Source: Actinomycetales bacterium (GTDB lineage: Bacteria; Actinomycetota; Actinomycetes; Actinomycetales; Kineosporiaceae). From it: 64,000 nt of DNA. The notes under the pieces were generated by a model. It was not told where the DNA came from, searched no databases, and worked only from the letters and a program-made list of their open reading frames with translations. The stretch is from the NCBI GenBank assembly GCA_012719445.1, contig JAAYAH010000144.1, forward strand, positions 1 through 64,000, given 5' to 3'. Positions within the stretch are counted from its first letter, which is position 1; each line of letters begins with the position of its first letter. Position numbers and translations under genes: made by a program. Shown in pieces: positions 1,917-61,635 of this stretch.

Positions 1917-3932
1917 TCAGGGCAGGAGGGGCTCGCCCACCCCGTCGACGGCCACCCGGTCCCTGCCCAGCGCCTTGGCCCGGTAGAGGGCACGGTCGGC
2001 GGCCTCCACCACCCACTCGGGCCCGATCCCCGGCCGGGCCGTGGCCACCGCGACGCCGATGCTCGCCGTCACCACCCCGGCCACCGGCGAGGCGGCGTGC
2101 CGGATCCCCGCCTCGGCCAGCAGGGCACGGAACCTGGCGGCGACGGCCCTCGCCGCCGCGTGCCCGCTCCGCGGCAGGACCAGGGTGAACTCCTCCCCGC
2201 CGTACCGGCAGGCCAGGTCGCTCGGGTCGCACACGGACTGCTGCAGCAGCGCGGCGAACGTGCACAGGGTCTCGTCCCCGCGCACATGCCCGTAGTAGTC
2301 GTTGTAGGCCTTGAACAGGTCGACGTCGACCATGAGCAGGGCGAGCTCGTCACCGGTGTCGCGCTGGGCCCGCCAGTGGTGGTCGAGGTGCCGTTCGAAG
2401 GCGCTCCGGTTGGCGATCCGGGTCAGCCCGTCGAGCATGAGGGACCGGCGCAGCTCGTCGTTGGCCCGCTGCAGCTCGAGGTTGGCCTGCTGCAGGTCCT
2501 GTTGCGCCCTGCGACGGGTGTCCACCTCGGCCTTGAGTTCGTCGGTCCGCCGCGCGATGACCTGCTGCAGCCCGGCCGCGTGCTCCCGGAGCTGGAGGGT
2601 GCCGAAGATGGCCTCCAGCGTGCGGCTGAGGTCGGTGTGCAGCATCTCGCTCACCGTCAGCTGGCCGCCGGTCTGCTCGAACAGGACGTACCCGAACTCT
2701 GCGTCGCCCGCGGTGAGGGCCTGGACGGCCAGGACCCCGGTCCCGAGCTCGCCGCGCAGCGCGTCCGGCAACAGCCGGTGGGAGGGGAACGGCTCCGACG
2801 GCGGAGGGTGCGCCCGCCCGCCCCGGAAGTCGAGGACCAGCCGCACCGGGCCCCCCGGCGCGGCGTGGATGTCCCCGCCGTCGAGCAGGCGGTCCTGGAT
2901 CGCCAGGAAGCAGCGGCCGAGGCCCAGGTGGTCGAGCCGCTCCGCGAGGGCGTCGACCACCTGGCCGAGGCTCCGGCACCGCAGCAGCGCCCGGTTGGTC
3001 CCGAGGATGGCGTCCTGCCCGGCGAGCCGGCTCTGCGTCAGCGCGGACATGGTGACCGCGGCCTCCAGTCGTTCCGCGGTGCCGTGGGTCCCGCAGGTCG
3101 ATCCCCGCAGCACCAGCCGGGACGGCAGGACGACCCGCTCCTCGACCGGCCCGCCGTCCAACTGCCGGAGCAGCAGGGTCCCCGCCGCGGCACCCTGGCC
3201 CTCGAGGTCCTGGTCGACGGTGGTGATCCCCGGCCAGGTCACCTCGGAGACCCGCTCGTTGTCGAACCCGGTGACGACCACCTGCTCGGGGACGCGCCGC
3301 CCGGCGTCGGTGAGGGCGCGCAACGCGCCGACCGCGGAGAGGTCGTTGAGGGCGACCACGGCGTCCGGCTCCGCTCCGTCCCGCAGCAGCGCGCGGACGG
3401 CCCGGTAGGTGCGGTCGTGCCAGAAGTCCCCGTCGACGACGAGGTCCTCGTCCACGGCGATACCCCGACGGGCCAGCTCCTCGCGGAACACACCCTCCCG
3501 TTCCGTGGAGTCCGGGTGACCGGCCAGCCCACGGACCAGGACCGGCCGGCCGACCTCGCACTCGTCGAGCAGGTGCGCCATCAGGGCCCGCATCCCGGCG
3601 GTGTTGTCGATCCGCACGCTCGCGGCCCCCGGCACGTCGAGCCCGACGAGGACGGAGGGCAGCGCCAGTTCGGTGAGGAGCCCCAGCAGCGCGAGCTCCT
3701 CCCCCGGGATGACGCCCTTGGTCGCGATCACGCCGCAGCACGAGGAGTGGCGGATGAGGTCGACGACGGAGCACGGCAGGGTCTCGTTCGAGGGATCACG
3801 GGCGCAGGCGACGGAGGAGACGGCGACGGCCGAGACGCCGCGGGCGGAGAGGACGTCGTGCACCCCGCGCAGGATGCGGGTGTGGTACTCCTCCACCCCG
3901 GTTGTGACCACCACCACCAGCGGACCGGGCAT
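1917..3932 (-). CDS. LacI-type ligand-binding domain fused to a diguanylate cyclase (GGDEF)
   Basis: The 671-residue soluble protein has no transmembrane segment and no helix-turn-helix. Residues 1 to about 280 are a LacI/GalR-type periplasmic-binding-protein fold ([14 protein letters not shown] at the start, [25 protein letters not shown] near 218-242). Residues about 300-445 are a middle domain shared with the sensor kinase at 48180-50468 ([20 protein letters not shown]). A coiled coil covers about 450-497, and a GGDEF domain runs from about 498 with an active RYGGEEF motif at 576-582. The RxxD inhibitory site is absent: the equivalent residues are Asp569-Pro-Ser-Asp572. It should make c-di-GMP in response to a cytoplasmic ligand, probably a sugar. 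ATG 3932 with GAGGA 10 bases upstream is preferred to GTG 3986, because the fold starts directly at [10 protein letters not shown]. Confidence 0.88.
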
Positions 3933-28681: not shown

Positions 28682-30325
28682 TCAGGGAGCCGACGGTCCC
28701 GGCGGGGAGCATCCGTCCACGACGACCCGGTTCCGACCGGCCCGCTTCGCCTCGTAGAGGGCCTCGTCGGCGCGGTGAAGGGCCTCGGTCCGGCCGGACG
28801 CGGGCCCGCAGGCGACACCGACGCTCACGGTGATCGCCAGGCCGGCCCTGATCCCGGTCCAGGGGTGATCGGCGACGGTACGCCGGATCCGCTCCCCGGC
28901 CTCGCTGCCGAACCGTGCCGCCTGGCCGGGCAGGACGACGAGGAACTCCTCCCCGCCCCAGCGCGACACCCGGTCCACCTCCCGGACGGCCCCGACGAGC
29001 AGCCTGCCGAGCTGACGCAGCACCTCGTCCCCGACGGCGTGCCCGAACCGGTCGTTGACCAGCTTGAAGTCGTCCACGTCGAGGAGCAGCAGGCACACCG
29101 GGTCCTCGGCGGGCAGCGCCCGGAGCACCCGCTCGACGCCTCTGCGGTTGTCCAGCCCGGTCAGCGGGTCCTGCTCCGCCGTGCGGGCGAGGACCTCGGT
29201 CTTGGCGATCAACGACCGTCGCTCGCCCTCCACCCCGGCCCGGGAGAACACCTGGTCCATGAACGCCAGCTCCTGCTGCTGGTGCCGCTCCCACAGCCGG
29301 TGACCGAGCAGCCGGGCGTCGGCCAGCGCCCCGGCGGTGTCCCCCATCGCCTCGTGGACCCGCCCGCGCAGCAGCAGGGTGGACACCTCGTCGGTGAGGT
29401 CGGCTCCCTCGGTGAGGATCGGGACCGCCGCGTCGAGCTCGGCGAGGGCCTCCTCCAGCCGGCCGAGCCGGTACAGGCACCGCCCCCGCACCAGGTGCAG
29501 GGACGCCAGCGGGACGGCGGTCAGCAGCTCGTCCGCGGCACTCGTCGACTCCAGCACCTCCCAGGCCCGCTCCGCGCAGCCCAGCTCGCAGAGCGCCGAG
29601 GCGAGCAGCCGCGGCCCGTGCACCGCCCGGACGGTCTTCGGCTCCCCGCGGTCGAGAAGCTGGCGGGCCAGGTGCTCGGCCCGCTCCACCAGGCCGGCCC
29701 GGATCCGGTAGCCCTCCCCGCCCGGCCGGATCCGGTCGGCGCGCCGCAGCAGCACCTCCGCGACGTCGTGGGTCGCCGCCGACCAACGGGCGAGGTCCCC
29801 GACGAGCTCGCTCTGGGCCACGGCGACCTCGGCGAACTCCAGCGCCCGGTCGTGGTCGTTGACCTGCCGGCACAGCCCGGCCAGCCGGATCGCGAGGTCG
29901 GCTCCGGTCCGGGGGTCGCGGTCGTACCCGGGCACCGACGCGTACCCGACCAGGGCCCTGACGGCCATCTCCGTCGATGCCTTCACGTTCCCCCTGGCGG
30001 CGTGGACGCCTGCGGCGACGAGACAGCTGGCCGCGGCCTGCTGCGGCATGCCGGCCGCCTCGTAGAGCACCGCCGCGCCCCTGGCGTCCTCGGCGGGACC
30101 GTCGTCCCCGCGGCCGCGACCGGCCGGACAGGGGTCCTCGGAGCGGAGCAGCCCCGCCCGGACCACCGCTCTCGCCTCCAGGAGCCGGGCCCGGTCGGCC
30201 CCCGCGGGGAGGTGGGCGAGCAGGGCGTTCACCTCGTACAGCCAGGTCCCGATGGTCACCCGGTCGGCGACCAGCGGAACGTCGGCGAGCACCGCCTGCA
30301 CCCGCGCCGGAGGACCCGCACCCAC
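28682..30325 (-). CDS. TPR-like sensor diguanylate cyclase (GGDEF)
   Basis: The 547-residue soluble protein has an all-helical N-terminal half (about 1-375) with TPR-like repeats (ARWSAATHDVAEVLLRR, LHLVRGRCLYRLGRLEEALAELDAA, LLRGRVHEAMGDTAGALADAR). The C-terminal GGDEF domain runs from about 390 (DPLTGLDNRRGVERVL), with the active motif RWGGEEF and an RxxD inhibitory site (REVD) before it. It should synthesise c-di-GMP in response to a protein partner that binds the TPR region. It is divergent from the MASE1-PAS-GGDEF-EAL gene, with 252 bases between. GTG 30325 is the likely start. Confidence 0.85.
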   Translation of the reverse strand: MGAGPPARVQAVLADVPLVADRVTIGTWLYEVNALLAHLPAGADRARLLEARAVVRAGLLRSEDPCPAGRGRGDDGPAEDARGAAVLYEAAGMPQQAAASCLVAAGVHAARGNVKASTEMAVRALVGYASVPGYDRDPRTGADLAIRLAGLCRQVNDHDRALEFAEVAVAQSELVGDLARWSAATHDVAEVLLRRADRIRPGGEGYRIRAGLVERAEHLARQLLDRGEPKTVRAVHGPRLLASALCELGCAERAWEVLESTSAADELLTAVPLASLHLVRGRCLYRLGRLEEALAELDAAVPILTEGADLTDEVSTLLLRGRVHEAMGDTAGALADARLLGHRLWERHQQQELAFMDQVFSRAGVEGERRSLIAKTEVLARTAEQDPLTGLDNRRGVERVLRALPAEDPVCLLLLDVDDFKLVNDRFGHAVGDEVLRQLGRLLVGAVREVDRVSRWGGEEFLVVLPGQAARFGSEAGERIRRTVADHPWTGIRAGLAITVSVGVACGPASGRTEALHRADEALYEAKRAGRNRVVVDGCSPPGPSAP

Positions 30326-30577: not shown

Positions 30578-33406
30578 ATGGCCGCGGCTTCGGGAGGTCG
30601 GACGGCCACCGGCCCCGGCCTGCCCGCCGCGCTCACCGGTCCGCTGCCCCTCGTCGCCGGGTTCGGCGTGCTCATCCTGCTGTTCGGTGCGTTCAGCGGC
30701 CAACTGCTGCGGGACGCCGTCACCGGGACCACCATCTGGCACCCGGAGGCCGGTCTGGCCGCCGCCGCGCTGACCAGGGCCAGGGGTCGGATGCGGGTGC
30801 TGCTGGCCGTCGTCCTGTTCTCCGCCCTCTGCACCGTCGACGTCCTCGCCGGAGCCCAGCCCCATGTCGTCGCCGGACGGGCGGTCGCGGCGACGGTCCA
30901 GGCACTCGTCATCGCGCTCCTCCTGGACCGGCTGCTGTCCGGCGGCGCCCCGGGGGCGGCAACGAGCCGGGGGCACCGGTGGGCCGACCGACCGGTCGGC
31001 ACCGACAGGGCCTGGTCGAGCGGGATGACCCTGCAGGGGCCGGGAGACATGGCCCGGCTGACCGCGGCGGCCGGTGTCGGCACCGTCGTCGGGGCGGCGG
31101 TGGCGGTCGGCCACGCCGCCCTGCCCGGAGCCGGTCAGCTCGCCTGGGACCCGGGCACGGTGCTGCTGGCGGCACGGGATCACGTGGCGGGTCAGCTCAC
31201 CGGGGTCCTGGTGCTGGCTCCCGTGCTGCTGGCCATCGGATCGCGGGCGGTCCGAGTGCGGGGCCGCCGGGTCGAGTGGACCCTGCAGCTCCTGACCACG
31301 GTCGGGATCACCTGGGTGGCGTTCGTCCCGGACGGCGAGCGGCCGTTCGTCTTCCTCACCATCGTCCCGCTGCTCTGGGCCGCGGCCCGGCTCGGCCTGC
31401 TCCGCACCGCCGTCAGCCTGGTGGTGTCCACGACCATCGTGGCCCTGGGAACCCTGGAGAGCGGCGGGCCGTTCGCCGCCCTCGACCACGACGACCTGGT
31501 GATGACGATGACCCAGTTGCTGGTCGTCGTGAACGCCCTGTCCGCCCTGGCACTGGCCCTCACCGCCCAGCGGCGGGACGAGGCCATCGCCCGCCTGGTC
31601 GCCGAGGAGGACTCCTACCGCAGGACCTTCGACAGCTCCCTGCTCGGCATGGCCGTCGTCGAGCTGACCGGCGCCGGAGCCGTCCTGGAACGCTGCAACC
31701 CCGCCCTGGTGGAGATGCTCGGCGGCGACCCGGTCGGCCGGCGGTGGACCGACCTCATCGCCGAGGAGGACCGGACCGCCATCACCTCGGCGACCCTGGG
31801 CCTGCGGGACGGCGCCATGTCGGGGTGGCGGGGCGAGCTGCGGCACCGGGTGACCGACGGCCAGCGGTGGCTGGAGGTCGCGCTGGCGCCCCTGCCGGGG
31901 GACGACGGGACGGTCGGGCGGCTGAGCGCCCAGGTCGTCGACGTCACCGAACGCCGGCTCGCCGAGGACCAGCTCCGCGACATGGCCCTGCACGACACCC
32001 TCACCGGGCTGCCGAACCGGACCCTGCTCATGGACCGCCTCGGCCTCTCCCTCTCCGGCGCGCAGCGCACCGGCGGTCGGGTCGCGCTGCTGTTCTGCGA
32101 CCTCGACGACTTCAAGAACATCAACGACACCGCGGGACACGCCCACGGCGACCGGATGCTCGTCGAGGTCACGGGCCGCATCGTGGGCGCGGTCCGACCG
32201 ACGGACACCGTCGCCCGGCTCGGCGGGGACGAGTTCGCCGTGCTGTGCCCCGACGTCCCCGACGCCGAGACCGCCGAGTCCATCGCCCTCCGGGTGCTCA
32301 GCGCCCTCGCCGAGCCGGTGGCCATCGACGACGCGGTCTACAGCCCTGGGGGCAGCCTCGGGATCGCCCTGTCGCGACCGGACAGCAGCGCCGACTCGCT
32401 GCTGCGCGAGGCGGACACCGCGATGTACCAGGCCAAGCGGAGCGGCAAGCGCCAGCTCGCCGTGTTCACCGACGAGCAGCAGGAGTCCGCGCTGCGCACG
32501 GTGCGGCTGGAGTCCCAGCTCACGCAGGCCGTCGAGCAGCGGCAGTTCCGGCTGTTCTTCCAGCCGGTGATGGACCTGCGGACCGGCCGGGTGGTCGCCA
32601 TGGAGGCCCTGGTCCGCTGGCAGCACCCCGACCGGGGTCTGCTGGCCCCCGGCGAGTGGCTCGACGTCGCCGAGCAGGGACCGACCATCCACGCCATGGG
32701 GCGGTGGGTGCTGGAGGAGGCGTGCCGGGTCGCGGTCACGTGGGAGGAGCTCCACGGCGCCGCCGCCCCGGTCATGCACGTCAACGTCTCCCCGCGACAG
32801 CTGCAGACGGGGTCCTTCCCGGAGGAGGTCACCGCGGTCCTCGACCGGTTCGGCCTGCGCGGGTCGAAGCTCGTGCTGGAGCTGACCGAGACCCAGTTCG
32901 ACCGGGTCCGGGACTCGTTCCGCGCCGACGTCGAGCGGCTGCGGGCGTTCGGGGTGCGCGTGGCCGCCGACGACTTCGGCACCGGGTACAGCCCGCTGAC
33001 CCGGCTCACGGAGCTCCCCGTCGACATGATCAAGATCGATCGGCAGTTCGTCGCCGACATGCACGAGGACGAGCGGGCCCTCGCCGTCGTCCAGGCGGTG
33101 CTGGGGCTGGGCAAGGCGCTGGGGCTCGACGTCGTCGCCGAGGGGGTGGAGACCCCGTCCCAGGCCGACCGGCTGCGCCGGCTGGGCTGCGGGACGGCGC
33201 AGGGCTACCTGTGGAGCCCGCCGCGGGCGGCCGAGGCCGTGCAGGACATGATCGGTTCCGTCCAGCGCCGGGTACCGCGGCAGCGCCGCGGGCGCAAGGC
33301 GGCCAGCACCACGGCCGGCACCAGGGACGGCGTCACGGACGGCGCGCGGTCCGGCGAGGACGACGTCCGCGACGGGTCACGGGACGACCAGCCCACCCGG
33401 AGCTGA
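30578..33406 (+). CDS. MASE1-PAS-GGDEF-EAL c-di-GMP protein
   Basis: The 942-residue inner-membrane protein starts with a MASE1-type sensor of about eight helices (15 to about 330: FGVLILLFGAFSGQLLRDAV, GTTIWHPEAGLAAAAL, VTWVAFVPDGERPF written here as WVAFVPDGERPF). It is followed by a PAS domain (about 345-460), a GGDEF domain with ARLGGDEF and RPTD inhibitory site, and an EAL domain with MEALVRW, NVSPRQL, LELTET, DDFGTGYSPL and VVAEGVET. Both catalytic domains look intact, so it may be a bifunctional cyclase and phosphodiesterase. The C-terminal tail is basic and low in complexity. ATG 30578 has GGGAGG 10 bases upstream. Confidence 0.9.
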   Translation: MAAASGGRTATGPGLPAALTGPLPLVAGFGVLILLFGAFSGQLLRDAVTGTTIWHPEAGLAAAALTRARGRMRVLLAVVLFSALCTVDVLAGAQPHVVAGRAVAATVQALVIALLLDRLLSGGAPGAATSRGHRWADRPVGTDRAWSSGMTLQGPGDMARLTAAAGVGTVVGAAVAVGHAALPGAGQLAWDPGTVLLAARDHVAGQLTGVLVLAPVLLAIGSRAVRVRGRRVEWTLQLLTTVGITWVAFVPDGERPFVFLTIVPLLWAAARLGLLRTAVSLVVSTTIVALGTLESGGPFAALDHDDLVMTMTQLLVVVNALSALALALTAQRRDEAIARLVAEEDSYRRTFDSSLLGMAVVELTGAGAVLERCNPALVEMLGGDPVGRRWTDLIAEEDRTAITSATLGLRDGAMSGWRGELRHRVTDGQRWLEVALAPLPGDDGTVGRLSAQVVDVTERRLAEDQLRDMALHDTLTGLPNRTLLMDRLGLSLSGAQRTGGRVALLFCDLDDFKNINDTAGHAHGDRMLVEVTGRIVGAVRPTDTVARLGGDEFAVLCPDVPDAETAESIALRVLSALAEPVAIDDAVYSPGGSLGIALSRPDSSADSLLREADTAMYQAKRSGKRQLAVFTDEQQESALRTVRLESQLTQAVEQRQFRLFFQPVMDLRTGRVVAMEALVRWQHPDRGLLAPGEWLDVAEQGPTIHAMGRWVLEEACRVAVTWEELHGAAAPVMHVNVSPRQLQTGSFPEEVTAVLDRFGLRGSKLVLELTETQFDRVRDSFRADVERLRAFGVRVAADDFGTGYSPLTRLTELPVDMIKIDRQFVADMHEDERALAVVQAVLGLGKALGLDVVAEGVETPSQADRLRRLGCGTAQGYLWSPPRAAEAVQDMIGSVQRRVPRQRRGRKAASTTAGTRDGVTDGARSGEDDVRDGSRDDQPTRS

Positions 33407-46109: not shown

Positions 46110-47609
46110 TCAGCTGGTCGGGAAGTTGTCCGACGTCATGATCCGACTGCGGACCAGGATCCCGGACTCCTTGAGCACGCTGGTGCCCGCGTAGTTGCTG
46201 CCGGAGCAGGTGCCCGCCTTGAACGCCGCGCTGCTCTCGGTGTGGTCGGAGAAGGTCCAGTTGGCGTAACTGACCTTCAACGAGTCCATCAGGTTGAACC
46301 ACGCGGTGGAACTGCTCTGGTCGACGCCGCCGTCACCGGTGTAGGTGACCGTGCCGAACTCGGTGACGAACATCGGGATCCGGGCGGCCGCCCGGCTGAG
46401 CGTCTGCCGGTAGTTGTCCCCGTGCGACGCGGCGTAGAAGTGGAACGCGTACATGACGTTGCCGGCGTTCACGGGGCTGTTGATGACCTCGTTCTCGTTG
46501 CCGCCCTCGGAGACGCCCAGCGAGGACCAGGCGCGGGTGCCGACGATGACGATCGCGTCCGGGTCGGCGTTGCGGATGACCGGGATGACCTGCTCGGCGT
46601 AGCTCTTGATCTGCGCCCAGCTCACCCCGTTGGGCTCGTTGGCGATCTCGTAGATGACGTTGTTCTTGTTCGCGTGCCGGGCCGCGACGGCGGCGAAGAA
46701 GGTCCTGGCGTTGTTGAGGTTGTAGTTCGGGTCGCCGGGGGTCAGCGTGTGGAAGTCGATGATCGCGTACATGCCGCGGGCCGTGGCCATGTCGACGTAG
46801 GTGTTGACCCGGTCGGTGAACAGCGCCGGGTTCGTCTCGTAGCCCTGCTCCTGCACGTACATGGAGACCCGCAACAGGTCGGCCTTCCAGTCGTTGGCCA
46901 GCGCGTCGAGGGAGGCGTCGTTGATGCACTGCGGGAACCACTGGATCCCGTGCGTGCTCATGCCCCGCAACTGGATCGGCTTGCCGTACTGGTTGCACAG
47001 GTTGGTGCCGCAGACCCGCAGTTGACCGTTGATCCCCACCGGGGTCCCGGTCGGCCCGGTGGACGTGGTGGTGGTCGTCGTGGTGGTCGACGTCGTGGTG
47101 GTTGTCGGCCGGGTCGTCGTGGTGGTCGACGTCGTGGTGGTTGTCGGCCGGGTCGTCGTGGTGGTCGACGTTGTGGGCCGGGTCGTCGTGGTGGTCGACG
47201 AGGTCGGCTGGACACCGCCGCAGGTGACGCCGTTCACCGCGAAGGATGTCGGCGGGTTGTTCGAGCCGGTCCAACTCCCGATGAACCCGGGCGACGCCGA
47301 GGCCCCGGTCGGGACGTTACCGTTCCACGTCTCGTTCCTCACGGTCACGTCGGACCCGCTGGAGGTGAACACCCCGCCCCAGCCCTGGGTGATCGCCTGG
47401 CCGTTGGGGAAGGTGAAGGTGAGGGTCCAGCCATTCCACGCGTCACCCAGGTTCTTGATCACGAGCGATCCCTGGAATCCGCTCTGCCACTGGTTGGCGA
47501 CGGAGTACTGGACGTCACAGGCCACCGCGGCCTGAGCGGAGGAACCGATCCCCGTGAGGAGGGCCATTCCGGTGAGGCCGGCCACGAGGAGTGAACAACA
47601 ACGTCTCAT
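46110..47609 (-). CDS. Secreted CBM2-GH5 endoglucanase (cellulase)
   Basis: The 499-residue secreted enzyme cuts beta-1,4-glucan. It has a signal peptide (1 to about 27, ending SSAQA), a CBM2 (about 29-130, with ANQWQSGFQGSLVIKNLG and SFAVNGVTC), and a linker of Thr runs broken by RP (135-188). The GH5 subfamily 2 barrel (about 193-499) has LRGMSTHGIQWFPQ, IDFHTL, acid/base Glu325 in YEIANEPNG, HFYAASHG, and nucleophile Glu417 in MFVTEFGT. ATG 47609 is the start. The gene is divergent from the LacI-type sensor kinase, a pairing that suggests functional linkage. Confidence 0.95.
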   Translation of the reverse strand: MRRCCSLLVAGLTGMALLTGIGSSAQAAVACDVQYSVANQWQSGFQGSLVIKNLGDAWNGWTLTFTFPNGQAITQGWGGVFTSSGSDVTVRNETWNGNVPTGASASPGFIGSWTGSNNPPTSFAVNGVTCGGVQPTSSTTTTTRPTTSTTTTTRPTTTTTSTTTTTRPTTTTTSTTTTTTTTSTGPTGTPVGINGQLRVCGTNLCNQYGKPIQLRGMSTHGIQWFPQCINDASLDALANDWKADLLRVSMYVQEQGYETNPALFTDRVNTYVDMATARGMYAIIDFHTLTPGDPNYNLNNARTFFAAVAARHANKNNVIYEIANEPNGVSWAQIKSYAEQVIPVIRNADPDAIVIVGTRAWSSLGVSEGGNENEVINSPVNAGNVMYAFHFYAASHGDNYRQTLSRAAARIPMFVTEFGTVTYTGDGGVDQSSSTAWFNLMDSLKVSYANWTFSDHTESSAAFKAGTCSGSNYAGTSVLKESGILVRSRIMTSDNFPTS

Positions 47610-48179: not shown

Positions 48180-50468
48180 ATGACCGGTCGAGCCGACCGC
48201 ATGGTCGTGTCGATCGCCACCGGCATCGACCTGTACCAGACGGCCCTGCTCCGGGGGATGTGCCGGGTTCTCACCCCGCTGGGGATCCCCCTCGTCGCCT
48301 ACACGAACCGCAACTACAGCGCCCACTACGGCCCCGACGGCAGCGGCATCACCCACGGGAACTGCGACCTCGGCCCGGTCGTCCACCCCGCGCTCGAGTG
48401 CCTGCTCCGACACCGCGACCTCCTGGGCGTCGCCGTGGCCAACTCGCTGTCGAGTCACCAGCAGGCGGCCCTGGGTGAGCTGACGGCCTCGCTGAACCTG
48501 CCCGTGGTGTACATCGCGCAGGACCTCCCCGGCCAGGACTGTGTCCGTGGCGACAACGCCCAGGGCATCAGGGCGGTGATGGAGCATCTCCTCGACGACC
48601 GCGGAGCGCGGCGGCTCGCCCTGGTCAGGGGGCTGGCGCACCAGCCGGACCACGTCGAGCGGGAGGCGGTGTTCCGTCGGGAGATCACTGCGCGCGGACT
48701 GACGGTGGACGAGGAACTGGTCCTCGACGGGGCGGCCGAACGCGAGGTCGCCCGCAACGCGATGCGCGCGCTGCTGGCCAGGCGCCGGGACCTCGACGCC
48801 GTGGTGACCACCGACGACCTCTGCGCCGAGGCGGTGGTCAGCGTCCTCCACGAACACGGGCTGCGGGTCCCGGACGACGTCATGGTGACCGGGTTCGACG
48901 ACTACCCGAACGCCAGCATGACCTGGCCCGGGTTGACGACCGTCGACCAGGACCTCGTCGGGCAGGGCGCCAACGCCGCCCGGCTTCTCCTCGACCAGGC
49001 CACGGGCTGCTCCCCCCGCGGAACGGTGGTCACGCCCTGTCGGCTCGTCGTCCGGGGCTCGACCATCGGGGACGCGGCGAACGGCACGGACGGTGAGGTC
49101 TCGGCGCGAAGCATCGCCCGCGCAGCCCAACTGCACCTGAACTTCCACCACGGGGTGCGCAGGCTCGGCCGGGTGCTGGCGGAGTGCAGGACTCTCGCCG
49201 ACGTCGGCGAGGCCCTGTCCACCTGCCTGTTCATGCTCGACGTGCGCCGGTGTTTCCTGGTCGTCCACGAGCGGGCCGAGGCGGGCGGCCCCGACGGCGT
49301 CCCGCACCAGCTCTCCCGGCTGGTGCTGGACCACCGGGACGGGGTCTCGCACCCGATCCCCGATCCGGTGTTCTCCTCGTGCCGCCTGCTGCCCGACAGT
49401 CTCCGTTCGGAGCTCCGCGAGGGGCAGCTCGTACTCCAAATGATGATCATGAACGACGAGACCCTCGGCTACCTGCTCACCGAGCACCTCGCGGCGCCGG
49501 TGGCGGTCATGGAACAGGTGGCCCTGGACGTGACCCGAGCGGTGCAGGTCGTACTCAGTACCCAGGAGCTCGAACAGCGGGTGGAGGAACGCACCCGGGA
49601 ACTCCAGGTCGCGCAGGGCGAACTGCTCAGCGCCGCACGCAGGGCAGGTATGGCCGAGATCGCCACCAATGTCCTGCACAACGTCGGCAACGTCCTCAAC
49701 AGCGTGAACATCTCGGCCGGCCGGCTGGCGCGGGGACTGCAGGAGTCGAGGTCCGACGGTCTGCGCCGGGCCGTCGGCCTCCTCTCCGACCCGGACGGCC
49801 ACCTCGGCGCCGTCCTCGCCGACGACGCCGAGGGCCGGCTGCTGCTGGAGTACCTGGTCGGGATCGACCAGGCGCTCGGGGAAGAACGGGCCACCCTCCT
49901 GGAGGAGGCGGCCCAGCTTCGGAAGCGGGTCAATCACATCAAGGCCATCGTGGCGACCCAGCAGTCCTACGCCGGGGTCGGGAGGATCACCGAGTTCGCC
50001 GACGTCGCCGACCTCGTGGACGACGCCCTCCGCATCAGCGCCGAGTCCCTGGCCCGGCAGGACGTGGAGGTGGTCAGGGCGTGCGAGACCATCCCCCCGA
50101 TGCTGCTCGACCGGGCCCGGATCGTCCTCGTCCTGGTCAACCTGATCACCAACGCCCGCGCGGCGATGGAGTCCGTCCCGCCGGGGAGCCGCCGGCTCAC
50201 CGTCGGTCTCACCGCGACGGCCGGCGCCCTGAGCCTGTCGGTGGGGGACACGGGTGAGGGGATCGACGAGGAGAACCTCGACCGCATCTTCGGCCACGGG
50301 TTCACCACCCGCCCGGACGGGCACGGGTTCGGGCTGCACAGCTGTGCCCTGGCCGCGTCGGAGATGGGCGGGACGCTGCGGGTCCACAGCGACGGGCGGG
50401 GACACGGCGCCGTGTTCACCCTCGAGCTCCCGATCCCGGACGCGCAGCAGGGAGGGGCGATCCGATGA
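48180..50468 (+). CDS. LacI-type ligand-binding sensor histidine kinase
   Basis: The 762-residue soluble kinase lacks membrane segments and helix-turn-helix. Residues about 8-295 are a LacI/GalR-type sugar-binding fold (SIATGIDLYQTALLRGM, VMVTGFDDYPNASMTWPGLTTVDQDLVGQGA). Residues about 315-458 are the middle domain shared with the protein at 1917-3932 (RCFLVVHER, SRLVLDHRDGVSHP, RLLPDSLRSEL). A coiled coil spans 460-487. The kinase core follows, with phosphoacceptor candidate His500 in NVLHNVGNVLNSVN, N box NLITNARAAM, G1 DTGEGI and G2 GHGFGLH. It should phosphorylate the REC protein encoded next, whose start codon overlaps its stop (ATGA). ATG 48180 has GAGGTGA about 6 bases upstream. Confidence 0.9.
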   Translation: MTGRADRMVVSIATGIDLYQTALLRGMCRVLTPLGIPLVAYTNRNYSAHYGPDGSGITHGNCDLGPVVHPALECLLRHRDLLGVAVANSLSSHQQAALGELTASLNLPVVYIAQDLPGQDCVRGDNAQGIRAVMEHLLDDRGARRLALVRGLAHQPDHVEREAVFRREITARGLTVDEELVLDGAAEREVARNAMRALLARRRDLDAVVTTDDLCAEAVVSVLHEHGLRVPDDVMVTGFDDYPNASMTWPGLTTVDQDLVGQGANAARLLLDQATGCSPRGTVVTPCRLVVRGSTIGDAANGTDGEVSARSIARAAQLHLNFHHGVRRLGRVLAECRTLADVGEALSTCLFMLDVRRCFLVVHERAEAGGPDGVPHQLSRLVLDHRDGVSHPIPDPVFSSCRLLPDSLRSELREGQLVLQMMIMNDETLGYLLTEHLAAPVAVMEQVALDVTRAVQVVLSTQELEQRVEERTRELQVAQGELLSAARRAGMAEIATNVLHNVGNVLNSVNISAGRLARGLQESRSDGLRRAVGLLSDPDGHLGAVLADDAEGRLLLEYLVGIDQALGEERATLLEEAAQLRKRVNHIKAIVATQQSYAGVGRITEFADVADLVDDALRISAESLARQDVEVVRACETIPPMLLDRARIVLVLVNLITNARAAMESVPPGSRRLTVGLTATAGALSLSVGDTGEGIDEENLDRIFGHGFTTRPDGHGFGLHSCALAASEMGGTLRVHSDGRGHGAVFTLELPIPDAQQGGAIR

Positions 50469-52750
50469 CCCTGTCACCGAACCGGCGGATCCTGCTCGTC
50501 GACGACGCCCCGGCCATCCACGAGGACTTCGCCAAGATCCTCGGGGGGAGGTCCCCGGCGACGTCGCGGCTGGACGACCTGGAGGCCGAGCTCTTCGGGT
50601 CCGACGCCCCCCGGGACCGGACCGCCACCGGCTTCCAGCTCGACTCCGCGTTCCAGGGCCGGGAGGCGCTGGCCATGGTGCGGGCGTCCCTGACCGCGGA
50701 CCGGCCGTACGCCCTCGCCTTCGTCGACATGCGCATGCCGCCGGGCTGGGACGGCGTGGAGACGATCGAACGGATCTGGGAGTGCGACCCCAGGATCCAG
50801 GTCGTCATCTGCACCGCCTACTCCGACCACTCCTGGCACGACGTCCTGCACCGCCTGGACGTGTCGGACCGGCTCCTCGTGCTCAAGAAGCCCTTCGAGG
50901 AGATCGAGGTGCTCCAGTTGGCGAACGCGCTGACCGTGAAGTGGCAGCGCACCCTGGAGGCCGGTCTGGAGACGGCGGCCCTCGAACGACTCGTCAACGA
51001 GCGCACGGCGGCGCTCGGGGCGGCCAACCTGGAGCTGAGGAAGGAGATGGAGGAGCACAGGCGGGCCGAGGCGGAGCTGAGGATCTCGACGGCGGTCTTC
51101 GACCACTCCCCCGACGGGATCGCGGTCCTCGACGCCAAGACCCGCGTCGTCTCGCTGAACCCGGCCTTCACCGCCATCACCGGGTACACCGCGACGGAGA
51201 TGCTGGGACGACCCGTCGGGCTGCTCTACCCCGGCCGGCGCCGGAAACACCTGTACCGGGCGCTCCTGGACACCATGCGGCGGCACGGCCACGGGGAGGG
51301 GGAGATCAGGAGCAGGCGGAAGGACGGCGAGGAGTTTCTCGCCCACGTCGACGTGTCCGGCGTCGGCGGCGGTGACGGCCCTCCCGACCAGTACGTCCTC
51401 CTCGTCAACGACGTCACCGAACTGCGCCGCAAGGACGAACACATCCACCGGCTCGCCTTCCACGACGAGCTGACCCGACTGCCCAACCGGGCGCTGCTCG
51501 CCGATCGCCTCGGTCACCGGATCGCTCTCGCCCGGCGCACGGGCAACCCGCTGGGGATCCTGTTCGTCGACCTCGACCGGTTCAAGGTGATCAACGACTC
51601 CTGCGGGTACGACGTGGGCAATCGCCTGCTCACCGCGACGGCCGAGCGGCTGAAGGACTGCCTGCGCGACTCCGACACCATCGCCAGGGTCGGCGGGGAC
51701 GAGTTCCTCGTCGTCCTCACCGCGACGCAGGGACCGGAGGAGCATGCCGTCACGGCGCGACGCGTCATCGCGCAGCTCTCCCGGCCGCTGACGGTGGACG
51801 GCCGGCCGATGCAGGTGGGGGCCTCGGTCGGCATCGCCTGCTACCCCGACGACGGTGCCGACGCGGCCGAGCTCATGACGCACGCCGAGGCCGCCATGCG
51901 GTCGGCGAAGTCCTCCGGAGGCGGCACCTACCGGTTCTTCCGGCAGGAGATGACGGCCAGGGCACAACTCCGTCTCCAGGTGGAGATGGAACTGCGGGAC
52001 GCCGTGCGTCAGGGCGGCCTCGAGCTCTTCTACCAGCCGAAGGTGACGGTCGCCGACGAAGCGCTCTGCGGCGCCGAGGCCCTGGTGCGATGGCGTCACC
52101 CCGACCGCGGCCTGGTCGGCCCGCTGGACTTCATCCCCCTCGCCGAGGAGACCGGCATCATCACCGACCTGGGCCTCTGGGTCCTCGACGAGGCGTGCCG
52201 CCAGTCCCGAGCCTGGCGGGACAGCCATGGCGAGCCGGTGAAGATCAGCGTCAACATCTCGGCGGTCCAGGTCTGCCAGGGCGACCTGGTCAAGGAGGTG
52301 GTCAGGGCCTGCGACCGGCACGACGTCGATCCCGCCGACCTGGAGCTCGAACTGACCGAGAGCATGATCACGGACAACCTCGGTGTGGTCTCGTCGACCT
52401 TGGCGGGACTGCGCGAGATCGGCTCCACGGTGGCCGTCGACGACTTCGGCACCGGGTACTCCAGCTTCGTCTACCTGCGCGACCTCCCGGTGGACGTTCT
52501 CAAGATCGATCGGTCCTTCGTCATGGACATGGAGCGGAGAGCCCCGAACCAGGAGATCGTCAAGGCGATCGTCTCCCTCGGCCGGGCCCTGTCCATGGAC
52601 GTCGTGGCCGAGGGGGTCGAGACCCGTGAACAGGCGGACCTGTTGCGATCCCACGGCTGCCGCACGGCCCAGGGCTACCTCTTCTCCCGCCCGGTCCCGG
52701 CCGAGGAGTTCGAACGGTCCTGGCTGCACGACGTCGCCCCCGCTCCCTGA
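50465..52750 (+). CDS. REC-PAS-GGDEF-EAL response regulator
   Basis: This 761-residue output protein is the likely partner of the sensor kinase. The REC domain (about 6-150) has acidic Asp13/Asp14, phospho-acceptor Asp88 in FVDMRMPPGWDG, Thr117 and Lys142 in VLKKPFEE. It is longer than usual because of an inserted loop near residues 30-65. A coiled coil (about 160-205), PAS (about 207-325), GGDEF (VGGDEF, with RDSD inhibitory site), and EAL (AEALVRW, NISAVQV, LELTESM, DDFGTGYSSF, VVAEGVET) follow. Both enzymatic domains look intact, so phosphorylation may set the balance between c-di-GMP synthesis and breakdown. Confidence 0.93.
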   Translation: MTLSPNRRILLVDDAPAIHEDFAKILGGRSPATSRLDDLEAELFGSDAPRDRTATGFQLDSAFQGREALAMVRASLTADRPYALAFVDMRMPPGWDGVETIERIWECDPRIQVVICTAYSDHSWHDVLHRLDVSDRLLVLKKPFEEIEVLQLANALTVKWQRTLEAGLETAALERLVNERTAALGAANLELRKEMEEHRRAEAELRISTAVFDHSPDGIAVLDAKTRVVSLNPAFTAITGYTATEMLGRPVGLLYPGRRRKHLYRALLDTMRRHGHGEGEIRSRRKDGEEFLAHVDVSGVGGGDGPPDQYVLLVNDVTELRRKDEHIHRLAFHDELTRLPNRALLADRLGHRIALARRTGNPLGILFVDLDRFKVINDSCGYDVGNRLLTATAERLKDCLRDSDTIARVGGDEFLVVLTATQGPEEHAVTARRVIAQLSRPLTVDGRPMQVGASVGIACYPDDGADAAELMTHAEAAMRSAKSSGGGTYRFFRQEMTARAQLRLQVEMELRDAVRQGGLELFYQPKVTVADEALCGAEALVRWRHPDRGLVGPLDFIPLAEETGIITDLGLWVLDEACRQSRAWRDSHGEPVKISVNISAVQVCQGDLVKEVVRACDRHDVDPADLELELTESMITDNLGVVSSTLAGLREIGSTVAVDDFGTGYSSFVYLRDLPVDVLKIDRSFVMDMERRAPNQEIVKAIVSLGRALSMDVVAEGVETREQADLLRSHGCRTAQGYLFSRPVPAEEFERSWLHDVAPAP

Positions 52751-59466: not shown

Positions 59467-61635
59467 ATGCCCTTCCACTGGTCGATCCACCAGCTCACCG
59501 AGTACCTCGTCAGTGTGAGCAAGCCGCAGAGCCCCGAGGCAGTGATCACAGTTGCCCTCGACCGGTCCGTCGAGGCCCTGGACGCGGAGTTCGGAGCGGT
59601 GTGCATCGACGGCACGTCCCGCGGGAGCACCGGCTTCGGTCGAGCCGGTGTGCCGGACGCCTTCGTCGACTGCACCGACGACGTCGTGCGGCTCCCCGGG
59701 ATCGGTGAGGTCCACCTGTCGCGAGGGGCACTCGAGGAGGAACTCGGGGGGATCAGGGCCGCGTCGAGGTCCGAGCTCGTCATCGGCCGGGTCGACGAAC
59801 CGCACAGCGCCGAGGAGCACCAACTGCTCCAGGGCATGGCCCTGGTGCTGGGGCTGGTGCTCCGGAACCTGGAGACGCTCCGAGCCGAGCGTTCACGGCA
59901 TCAGCTCGTGCGGACCCTACTCGCCATCCAGCAGGCGATCTCGGCGCGGCGTCCGCTCAGCGAGCTCCTCGACGCGATCACCAGGGGCGCCTCCAACCTG
60001 CTCGGCGGCTGCCCCGTCGTCCTCCTGCTGTCGGACGGGCTCACACCGGGAACCCTCGTGCCCGCCTCGGCCTTCGACGTCGACGAGCTGGACGAGGTGA
60101 CCCTCACCATGGCCCGCGAGGTCATGGAGACCGGACGAACAAGGTCGGGCGGGCACGCCGTCGAAGGTCGGCCCGAGCTCATGGAACGGGTGGTCGTGGC
60201 CGGGGAGAGCACGGGCTGTCTGGTGGCTCGACCCTCCCCCGACAATGCCTCGGAACGAGACCACGGCGAGCTCCTCGCCGCCTTCGCCCAGCAGGTGAAC
60301 CTGGCCCTGACCGACGCGAGAACCCTCGACGCCATCAGAGAGGCGTATCACGACTCCATCACCGGGTTGCCCAACCGAGCCCTCTTCCTGGAGCGACTCG
60401 AGCAGGCGCGATCCCTCGCCCTCGCCCACAGGAACGAGCTCACCGTCCTCTTCGTCGACCTCGACAGGTTCAAGGCCGTCAACGACACCCTCGGGCACCA
60501 GGTCGGTGACGAGTTGCTCGCCGAGGTCGGTCGGCGTATCCGGACGTGCATCCGGCCGTCGGACACCGCGGCCCGGCTGGGCGGCGACGAGTTCTCGATT
60601 CTGCTCGAGGGCGCCGACGAGAACACCGGCTGCATGGTGGCCAGCCGTGTCATCGCCGACCTGTCCCGGGCGTTCGTGATCGCCGGCCGTGAGATCTTCA
60701 TCGGTGCCAGTGTCGGGATAGCCCAGCTGACCACGGGGCACGGTGACGCGGGCTCTCTGCTCAGCGACGCGGACGTGGCGATGTACTGCGCCAAGCGGGC
60801 AGGCCGCGGACGGTGGGTCGTCTTCGAGCCGAGCATGTCCCGGGAGCTCATCAACCGCCTCGACCTGCGTACCGACCTGCAGCACGCCCACGACAACGGA
60901 CAGCTCTGGCTGGCCTATCAGCCCATCGTCAGGATCGACTCGCTCGAGGTGGACGGGGTGGAGGCACTGATGCGTTGGGACCACCCCACCCGGGGTGCCG
61001 TTCCACCCGTCGAGTTCATCCCGATCGCCGAGGAGACCGAGACCATCGTCACTCTCGGGGCGTGGGCGCTCCGTCAGGCCGTGGCCCAGGTCACCAGTTG
61101 GCGTGTCGGACCGTCGTCCCCGCGGCTCAGCCTGAACCTCTCGCCCCGTCAACTGGTCGACCCGAGCCTTCCTGAGGTGATCGAGAAGGTTCTGGAGTCC
61201 TTCTCGTTCCCGCCGGAGGCGCTGACCATGGAGATCACCGAGTCCCAGCTGGTCAGCCAGGAACTCGCGCAGACAAGGCTGACCGCGTTGAAGGACCTCG
61301 GCGTCAGCCTGGCCATCGACGACTTCGGGACCGGCTACTCCTCGCTGTCCTACCTCCGCCAGCTCCCCATCGACCAGGTCAAGATCGACAAGAGCTTCAT
61401 CCAGGGGCTGGCTCCCGACGCGCCCGATGCGATCGCCGTCATGCGCGGCATCCTGGAGATGTGCCAGGGGTTGCGGATGCAGACGCTCGCCGAGGGGATC
61501 GAGGAGCCCGTGCAGCTCGAGCTCCTGGCCGAACTCGGATGCGATCTCGGCCAGGGGTACCACCTGGCCCGTCCGATGCCCCCGGATCGGTGGCCCGAGT
61601 TCGCCGAGAGAACGGCGGTGCCGGCGGTCAGCTGA
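59467..61635 (+). CDS. GAF-GGDEF-EAL c-di-GMP protein
   Basis: The 722-residue soluble protein has two GAF-like sensory domains (about 8-140 and 150-285), then GGDEF (LGGDEF, with RPSD inhibitory site) and EAL (VEALMRW, NLSPRQL, MEITESQ, DDFGTGYSSL, TLAEGIEE). Both enzymatic domains seem intact. It probably receives the signal of the FIST protein encoded just upstream and changes c-di-GMP accordingly. ATG 59467 begins 25 bases after the FIST stop. The tail ends ERTAVPAVS. A 19-bp hairpin that also serves ssrA lies 164 bases past its stop. Confidence 0.92.
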   Translation: MPFHWSIHQLTEYLVSVSKPQSPEAVITVALDRSVEALDAEFGAVCIDGTSRGSTGFGRAGVPDAFVDCTDDVVRLPGIGEVHLSRGALEEELGGIRAASRSELVIGRVDEPHSAEEHQLLQGMALVLGLVLRNLETLRAERSRHQLVRTLLAIQQAISARRPLSELLDAITRGASNLLGGCPVVLLLSDGLTPGTLVPASAFDVDELDEVTLTMAREVMETGRTRSGGHAVEGRPELMERVVVAGESTGCLVARPSPDNASERDHGELLAAFAQQVNLALTDARTLDAIREAYHDSITGLPNRALFLERLEQARSLALAHRNELTVLFVDLDRFKAVNDTLGHQVGDELLAEVGRRIRTCIRPSDTAARLGGDEFSILLEGADENTGCMVASRVIADLSRAFVIAGREIFIGASVGIAQLTTGHGDAGSLLSDADVAMYCAKRAGRGRWVVFEPSMSRELINRLDLRTDLQHAHDNGQLWLAYQPIVRIDSLEVDGVEALMRWDHPTRGAVPPVEFIPIAEETETIVTLGAWALRQAVAQVTSWRVGPSSPRLSLNLSPRQLVDPSLPEVIEKVLESFSFPPEALTMEITESQLVSQELAQTRLTALKDLGVSLAIDDFGTGYSSLSYLRQLPIDQVKIDKSFIQGLAPDAPDAIAVMRGILEMCQGLRMQTLAEGIEEPVQLELLAELGCDLGQGYHLARPMPPDRWPEFAERTAVPAVS

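Follow-up and report, generated by a model that had tools for sequence, protein, structure and literature searches.

The closest described system is NosP-NahK-NarR of Legionella pneumophila (Lpl0330/Lpl0329), a nitric oxide (NO) two-component system whose regulator is a bifunctional DGC/PDE, in which a soluble kinase likewise lies beside a REC-bearing GGDEF-EAL regulator (PMC8846402, PMC11237717). In this system NO-NosP activates NahK, NahK phosphorylates NarR and the cyclase (DGC) activity of NarR falls (PMC11237717, PMC8846402). A LacI-type sensor coupled to a c-di-GMP output is found in the soluble LacI/PBP-GGDEF proteins of Clostridia, Treponema and Actinobacteria, many of which were recovered in our genome scan, and according to a 2022 census c-di-GMP enzymes commonly carry PBP-clan and LacI-like domains, which are almost unstudied (PMC8846402). 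The sensor fold and its effector domain are also shared with the LacI/GalR repressors (e.g. Thermobifida CelR), which have an N-terminal HTH. Finally, HTH-less LacI domains precede histidine kinases at three other loci (L131, L093 and L125), with sensors that are distantly alike; one of these, L131 7908-11111 from an Opitutaceae MAG, encodes a soluble LacI-type PBP-HisKA-HATPase-REC-REC kinase. Nothing closer than these systems was found in the literature on LacI-sensor kinases.

The 64,000-nucleotide stretch analysed here (the window) belongs to the genome (G000; 5.42 Mb in 283 contigs) of a flagellated, cellulose-degrading actinobacterium. Searches of this genome return 92 matches to CBM2 and three to PilZ, as well as flagellin. 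The window carries a kinase-regulator pair and the neighbours listed below.

48180..50468, + strand: soluble histidine kinase of 762 aa with a LacI-type sensor (ORF, Pfam, no TM)
48180..49073, + strand: LacI/PBP-type sensor domain without HTH, kinase residues 1-298 (Pfam Peripla_BP_3)
49104..49574, + strand: predicted divergent GAF-fold domain, kinase residues 309-465 (AlphaFold2 and Foldseek)
49575..50465, + strand: coiled coil, DHp (His500, codon 49677-49679) and CA, a NahK-like transmitter (49-52% identity to the L188/L220 kinases; HATPase_c)
50465..50468, + strand: ATGA shared by the stop codon of the kinase gene and the start codon of the regulator gene (sequence)
50465..52750, + strand: response regulator REC-PAS-GGDEF-EAL, 761 aa (ORF, Pfam)
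50465..50959, + strand: REC domain, Asp88 (codon 50726-50728) (64% to Variovorax, 67% to the L220 regulator; motif positions)
51080..51439, + strand: PAS domain (Pfam; 51% to native L044)
51455..51922, + strand: GGDEF domain; both its GGDEF motif and an RxxD I-site are present (71% to native L044)
51989..52693, + strand: EAL domain, motifs intact (Pfam; 73% to native L044)
46110..47609, - strand: CBM2-GH5 cellulase, a divergent neighbour with no evidence of belonging to the system (Pfam, adjacency statistics)
1917..3932, - strand: paralogue sharing the sensor and GAF-fold domain of the kinase, with a GGDEF output (family search)

The original prediction, a soluble LacI-type kinase overlapping a REC-PAS-GGDEF-EAL gene by ATGA and divergent from a CBM2-GH5 cellulase gene, is confirmed by the ORFs and Pfam. 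In the kinase, the Pfam scan returns Peripla_BP_3 (5.8e-28) and HATPase_c (1e-18) and no HTH, the protein starting within the PBP fold, and no TM-like stretch is present (highest 19-residue hydropathy 1.56). Motif inspection places the phospho-accepting histidine at His500 in the H-box ATNVLHNVGN and shows the N, G1 and G2 boxes to be intact (NLITNARAAM, DTGEGI and GHGFGLH). All four regulator domains (Response_reg, PAS, GGDEF and EAL) exceed the curated Pfam cut-offs; the REC residues Asp88, Thr117 and Lys141/142 are present, as are the RDSD I-site and the GGDEF, EAL and DDFGTG motifs of the output. The two proteins together hold all that a canonical two-component system requires (His, N/G boxes, REC Asp/Thr/Lys), and the predicted His500 and Asp88 proved to be correctly assigned. 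Also supported are the reading as a cytoplasmic LacI-type sensor kinase with a c-di-GMP regulator as its partner, and the view that this layout is unusual. The kinase-REC pairing is strongly backed by Variovorax and by a MAG labelled Dactylosporangium, in each of which the same HK-REC pair stands side by side.

This kinase departs from the other systems in different ways. Unlike the LacI/GalR repressors it lacks an HTH and has a kinase output, and whereas the LacI/PBP-GGDEF proteins act directly through GGDEF, most of the distant ones lacking the GAF-fold domain, here the sensor is followed by a kinase and a separate regulator. The L131 and L125 kinases are of the HisKA type, unlike the window kinase, and L131 is a hybrid with receivers. 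The mark of the NahK/NarR-type group, a VLHNVGN-type transmitter adjacent to a REC-PAS-GGDEF-EAL regulator, is seen in the window pair, with membership resting on a Variovorax FIST-HK-RR locus, which matches the operon layout of the Legionella system; the comparison with Legionella runs via Variovorax rather than sequence to sequence. However, the window kinase has LacI and GAF-fold sensors of its own, the window PAS-GGDEF-EAL is of an actinobacterial type (~40% to the Variovorax regulator), and no NosP (FIST-FIST_C) gene is found by Pfam among the immediate neighbours, which are the cellulase and a rhamnogalacturonan lyase. Judged by its sequence, the window pair would work like the NosP system and is not one.

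The best PDB relatives of the sensor domain are LacI-family effector domains, including cellobiose-bound CelR (5ysz), the second-best structural match with 28% identity, which is too distant for a ligand to be assigned from the alignment. Arg161 and Asp240 are invariant in the sensor family alignment and align with effector-contact positions of LacI. Behind the sensor, kinase residues 309-465, a domain left unnamed in the original prediction, have no Pfam match; their AlphaFold2 model (pLDDT 92) retrieves in Foldseek top matches that all contain GAF (best E 8e-4), and the region is accordingly modelled as a divergent GAF fold. The window kinase belongs to a family by homology along the length of the sensor and GAF-fold domain, at 37-52% identity among 24 aligned sequences.

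This family is large in the host. The genome has 76 Peripla_BP_3 matches, and a census drawn from most, not all, of these loci, and including proteins cut at contig ends, finds 36 proteins with the sensor type of the kinase (the kinase included), 35 of which have a recognisable GAF-fold domain behind the sensor. At least 27 of the 36 end in an intact GGDEF domain (GGEEF motif), the RxxD I-site being kept in only seven of 27 such members; a further member has an incomplete GGDEF domain lacking the motif, L034 and L044 have the architecture sensor-GAF-PAS-GGDEF-EAL, and five are cut by a contig end or have no readable output. The window kinase is the sole member with a kinase output, HATPase_c standing in place of a GGDEF on the same chain. 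In a second layout, ~9 further host proteins join a LacI-type domain to GGDEF(-EAL); proteins of this kind at L002, L020, L026, L044:5381-8734, L046, L047 and L048 lack the GAF-fold domain seen in the first family. L022 4585-10467 (G000:C194) is a tandem array of three LacI-GAF sensor genes, of which two have a GGDEF output and the third runs off the contig. The contig of the window carries six GGDEF domains in or beside the window (1917-3932, 28682-30301, 30578-33406, 50465-52750, 59467-61635 and one just past 64000), one of which is a LacI-GAF-GGDEF paralogue. Twelve other genomes of the host's family have three or fewer sensor-GAF relatives each.

Domain-by-domain comparison gives each part of the pair a different nearest relative. 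The sensor (54%) and GAF-fold domain (50%) of the kinase are closest to the native paralogues L024/L035, whereas its coiled coil shares 66% and its DHp-CA 49% identity with the Variovorax kinase, and the window REC is 64% identical to the adjacent Variovorax regulator. The PAS, GGDEF and EAL domains are 51, 71 and 73% identical to those of native L044, against only 38 and 41% to Variovorax for GGDEF and EAL. By these identities the pair reads as a mosaic, with a native sensor half, a transmitter and REC that match the Variovorax and L220 pairs, and an output closest to two native one-component proteins.

In Variovorax (L188/L189) the gene order is FIST, kinase, regulator, and kinase and regulator again overlap by ATGA. 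In the Dactylosporangium-labelled MAG (L220), the matching kinase module ends an STK-AAA-GAF protein and the adjoining regulator resembles that of the window over its full length (REC 67, PAS 42, GGDEF 58 and EAL 51%). The DHp H-box and REC alpha1 are nearly identical between these two pairs and that of the window. The LHN[VL]GN motif is intact where a REC is adjacent or nearby (window, Variovorax, L220 and L224); among four related kinases without an adjacent REC, the histidine is lost in L222, the motifs are altered in L223 and L225, and L221 is near-intact (LHNIGS), the H-box being visibly degenerate in two of the four. L222 10168-15708 (G765:C580) is an STK-AAA-GAF kinase with a related transmitter whose H-box region reads VLTTIDKVL and no longer has the histidine.

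Beyond generic HATPase, no counterpart of the window HK or REC is present among the fetched host-genome loci, and no other REC of the window type was found in 396 genomes of the phylum. A vertical actinobacterial origin of the transmitter was considered and rejected, since the phylum and family samples give only generic HATPase matches (27-41%) and nothing else for REC in the 396 genomes. A second LacI-type kinase of the window family was found neither in the 12 other family genomes nor in a 395-genome class sample, so that conservation lends the fused kinase itself no support. The conservation expected for the gene trio thus divides: the trio itself is not conserved, there being no LacI-kinase in those samples, and the HK-REC core does recur in distant genomes. 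Because the HK-REC pair is rare and patchy in Actinobacteria, its distribution suggests that it was probably acquired by transfer.

The order in which the parts came together was first read as a simple insertion of an HK-REC cassette into a one-component gene. In this reverse order, which would leave today's mechanism identical, a native LacI-GAF-PAS-GGDEF-EAL protein resembling L044 was split at the coiled coil; the sensor-GAF and PAS-GGDEF-EAL halves both look native, with only HK and REC foreign, and the linker segment that follows REC can be aligned to the one between GAF and PAS in L044 (45%). However, L220, the closest outside relative of the output, already has a REC before the same PAS-GGDEF-EAL and an HK beside it, and it branches outside the clade of the window regulator, L044 and L034 as their sister (99/99; the clade itself 100/100, with L044 and L034 grouped at 89/83). 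Moreover, the L044 and L034 sensors are not sisters of the kinase sensor: in the sensor-GAF tree the kinase groups with L024 and L035 (99/98), L044 with L029 (100/99) and L034 with L026 (100/100). A single clade for the three sensors is rejected (AU test, p=9e-92), as is a clade of the kinase and L044 sensors alone (p=2e-5). The disagreement between sensor and output trees implies that one output module lies behind three family sensors from separate clades, and since REC and HK are both present in L220, their loss from L044 and L034 is the more economical explanation. The L220 pair and the trees therefore demote the insertion order to a rather unlikely one; with moderate confidence, and from one outside pair, we infer that HK and REC were lost in L044 and L034.

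In the preferred reading, which we consider likely, a NahK/NarR-type phosphorelay has been re-plugged behind a cytoplasmic LacI-GAF sensor and controls a bifunctional cyclase/phosphodiesterase. Domains, motifs, mosaic composition, gene pairing and trees can be read from the sequence; ligand class, phosphotransfer, sign and physiological output are inferred. The Venus-flytrap sensor would close on a small, polar cytoplasmic ligand from the LacI-effector class, probably a sugar or sugar derivative, and the signal would pass via the GAF-fold domain and the coiled coil to the NahK-like DHp/CA, altering autophosphorylation of His500 and then phosphotransfer to Asp88 of the co-translated regulator. 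Phosphorylated Asp88 may shift the GGDEF/EAL balance, most likely towards less net c-di-GMP synthesis as in Legionella NarR, a sign borrowed by way of the Variovorax pair, and the changed c-di-GMP pool would govern motility, attachment or development. In evolutionary terms, the output of one LacI-GAF-GGDEF family member would have been replaced by the transmitter of an existing HK/REC-PAS-GGDEF-EAL pair, whose PAS-GGDEF-EAL module, without HK and REC, also came to lie behind two other sensors. In many GGDEF-EAL proteins only one domain is active, and the H-box has been lost from a related transmitter (L222), so that the regulator might instead serve mainly as a receptor for c-di-GMP or as a local scaffold, or the kinase might be a pseudo-sensor, the pair then not setting c-di-GMP levels. 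Here, however, every kinase box and REC residue is intact, as are the GGDEF, I-site and EAL motifs, and we regard this reading as very unlikely.

The cellulase next to the pair invites another interpretation, in which the ligand of the sensor is cellobiose or a similar product of the divergent GH5 cellulase, its functional partner, and the pair is a dedicated unit coupling attachment or motility to cellulose breakdown. Such a role is suggested by the CBM2-GH5 gene 570 bp away, by a CBM2 rhamnogalacturonan lyase downstream of the pair, by the CelR-cellobiose match and by the many CBM2 matches in the genome. The statistics, computed from the contig coordinates of search matches, argue against it: six of the 36 sensor family genes have a CBM2 domain within 5 kb against ~4 expected (no more than ~12% of the genome falls inside that distance), compared with 9/29 ordinary LacI regulators of the host, which are enriched there, and 6/64 other GGDEF genes. 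The immediate neighbours of the paralogues include CBM2 in only 2/56 cases and are mostly housekeeping genes. Moreover, no CebR-type operator is found in the 570-bp gap, neither kinase nor regulator has a DNA-binding domain in the Pfam scan, and the distance to CelR does not allow a ligand call. This gap also contains three TGATCA palindromes in ~80 bp (47749, 47768 and 47822), possibly the operator of another regulator. Co-regulation with the cellulase was rejected on account of the missing operator and the absent family-wide CBM2 enrichment. The proposed tie of attachment or motility to cellulose breakdown products is thus not borne out and a cellulose-sensing unit appears improbable; since the family is not CBM2-enriched, its neighbours are mostly housekeeping genes and no CebR-type site is present, the position of the cellulase beside the pair is best put down to chance, the genome being rich in CBM2.

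The individual parts of the system are known; their combination is new and its scale unusual. Little has been documented about how c-di-GMP enzymes sense sugars or metabolites. Actinobacterial genomes, with MAGs excluded, encode 0-80 GGDEF proteins, the numbers being highest in zoospore formers (PMC10746217); the host has 106 GGDEF matches, some of them contig-end fragments, and ~100 GGDEF proteins would exceed this range (PMC10746217). There is about an even chance that the host lineage has built a large cytoplasmic metabolite-to-c-di-GMP network (36 LacI-GAF and ~9 second-layout proteins of ~100 GGDEF proteins), in which HTH-less LacI sensors were repurposed and outputs (GGDEF, PAS-GGDEF-EAL, or HK plus REC-PAS-GGDEF-EAL) are swapped at one joint behind the GAF-fold domain. 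With dozens of paralogous LacI sensors and intact cyclases in one genome, one of them rewired through a phosphorelay, ligands and the effects of output swaps become directly comparable, and the network, if true, would be a natural set of one- and two-component swaps on the same sensor fold.
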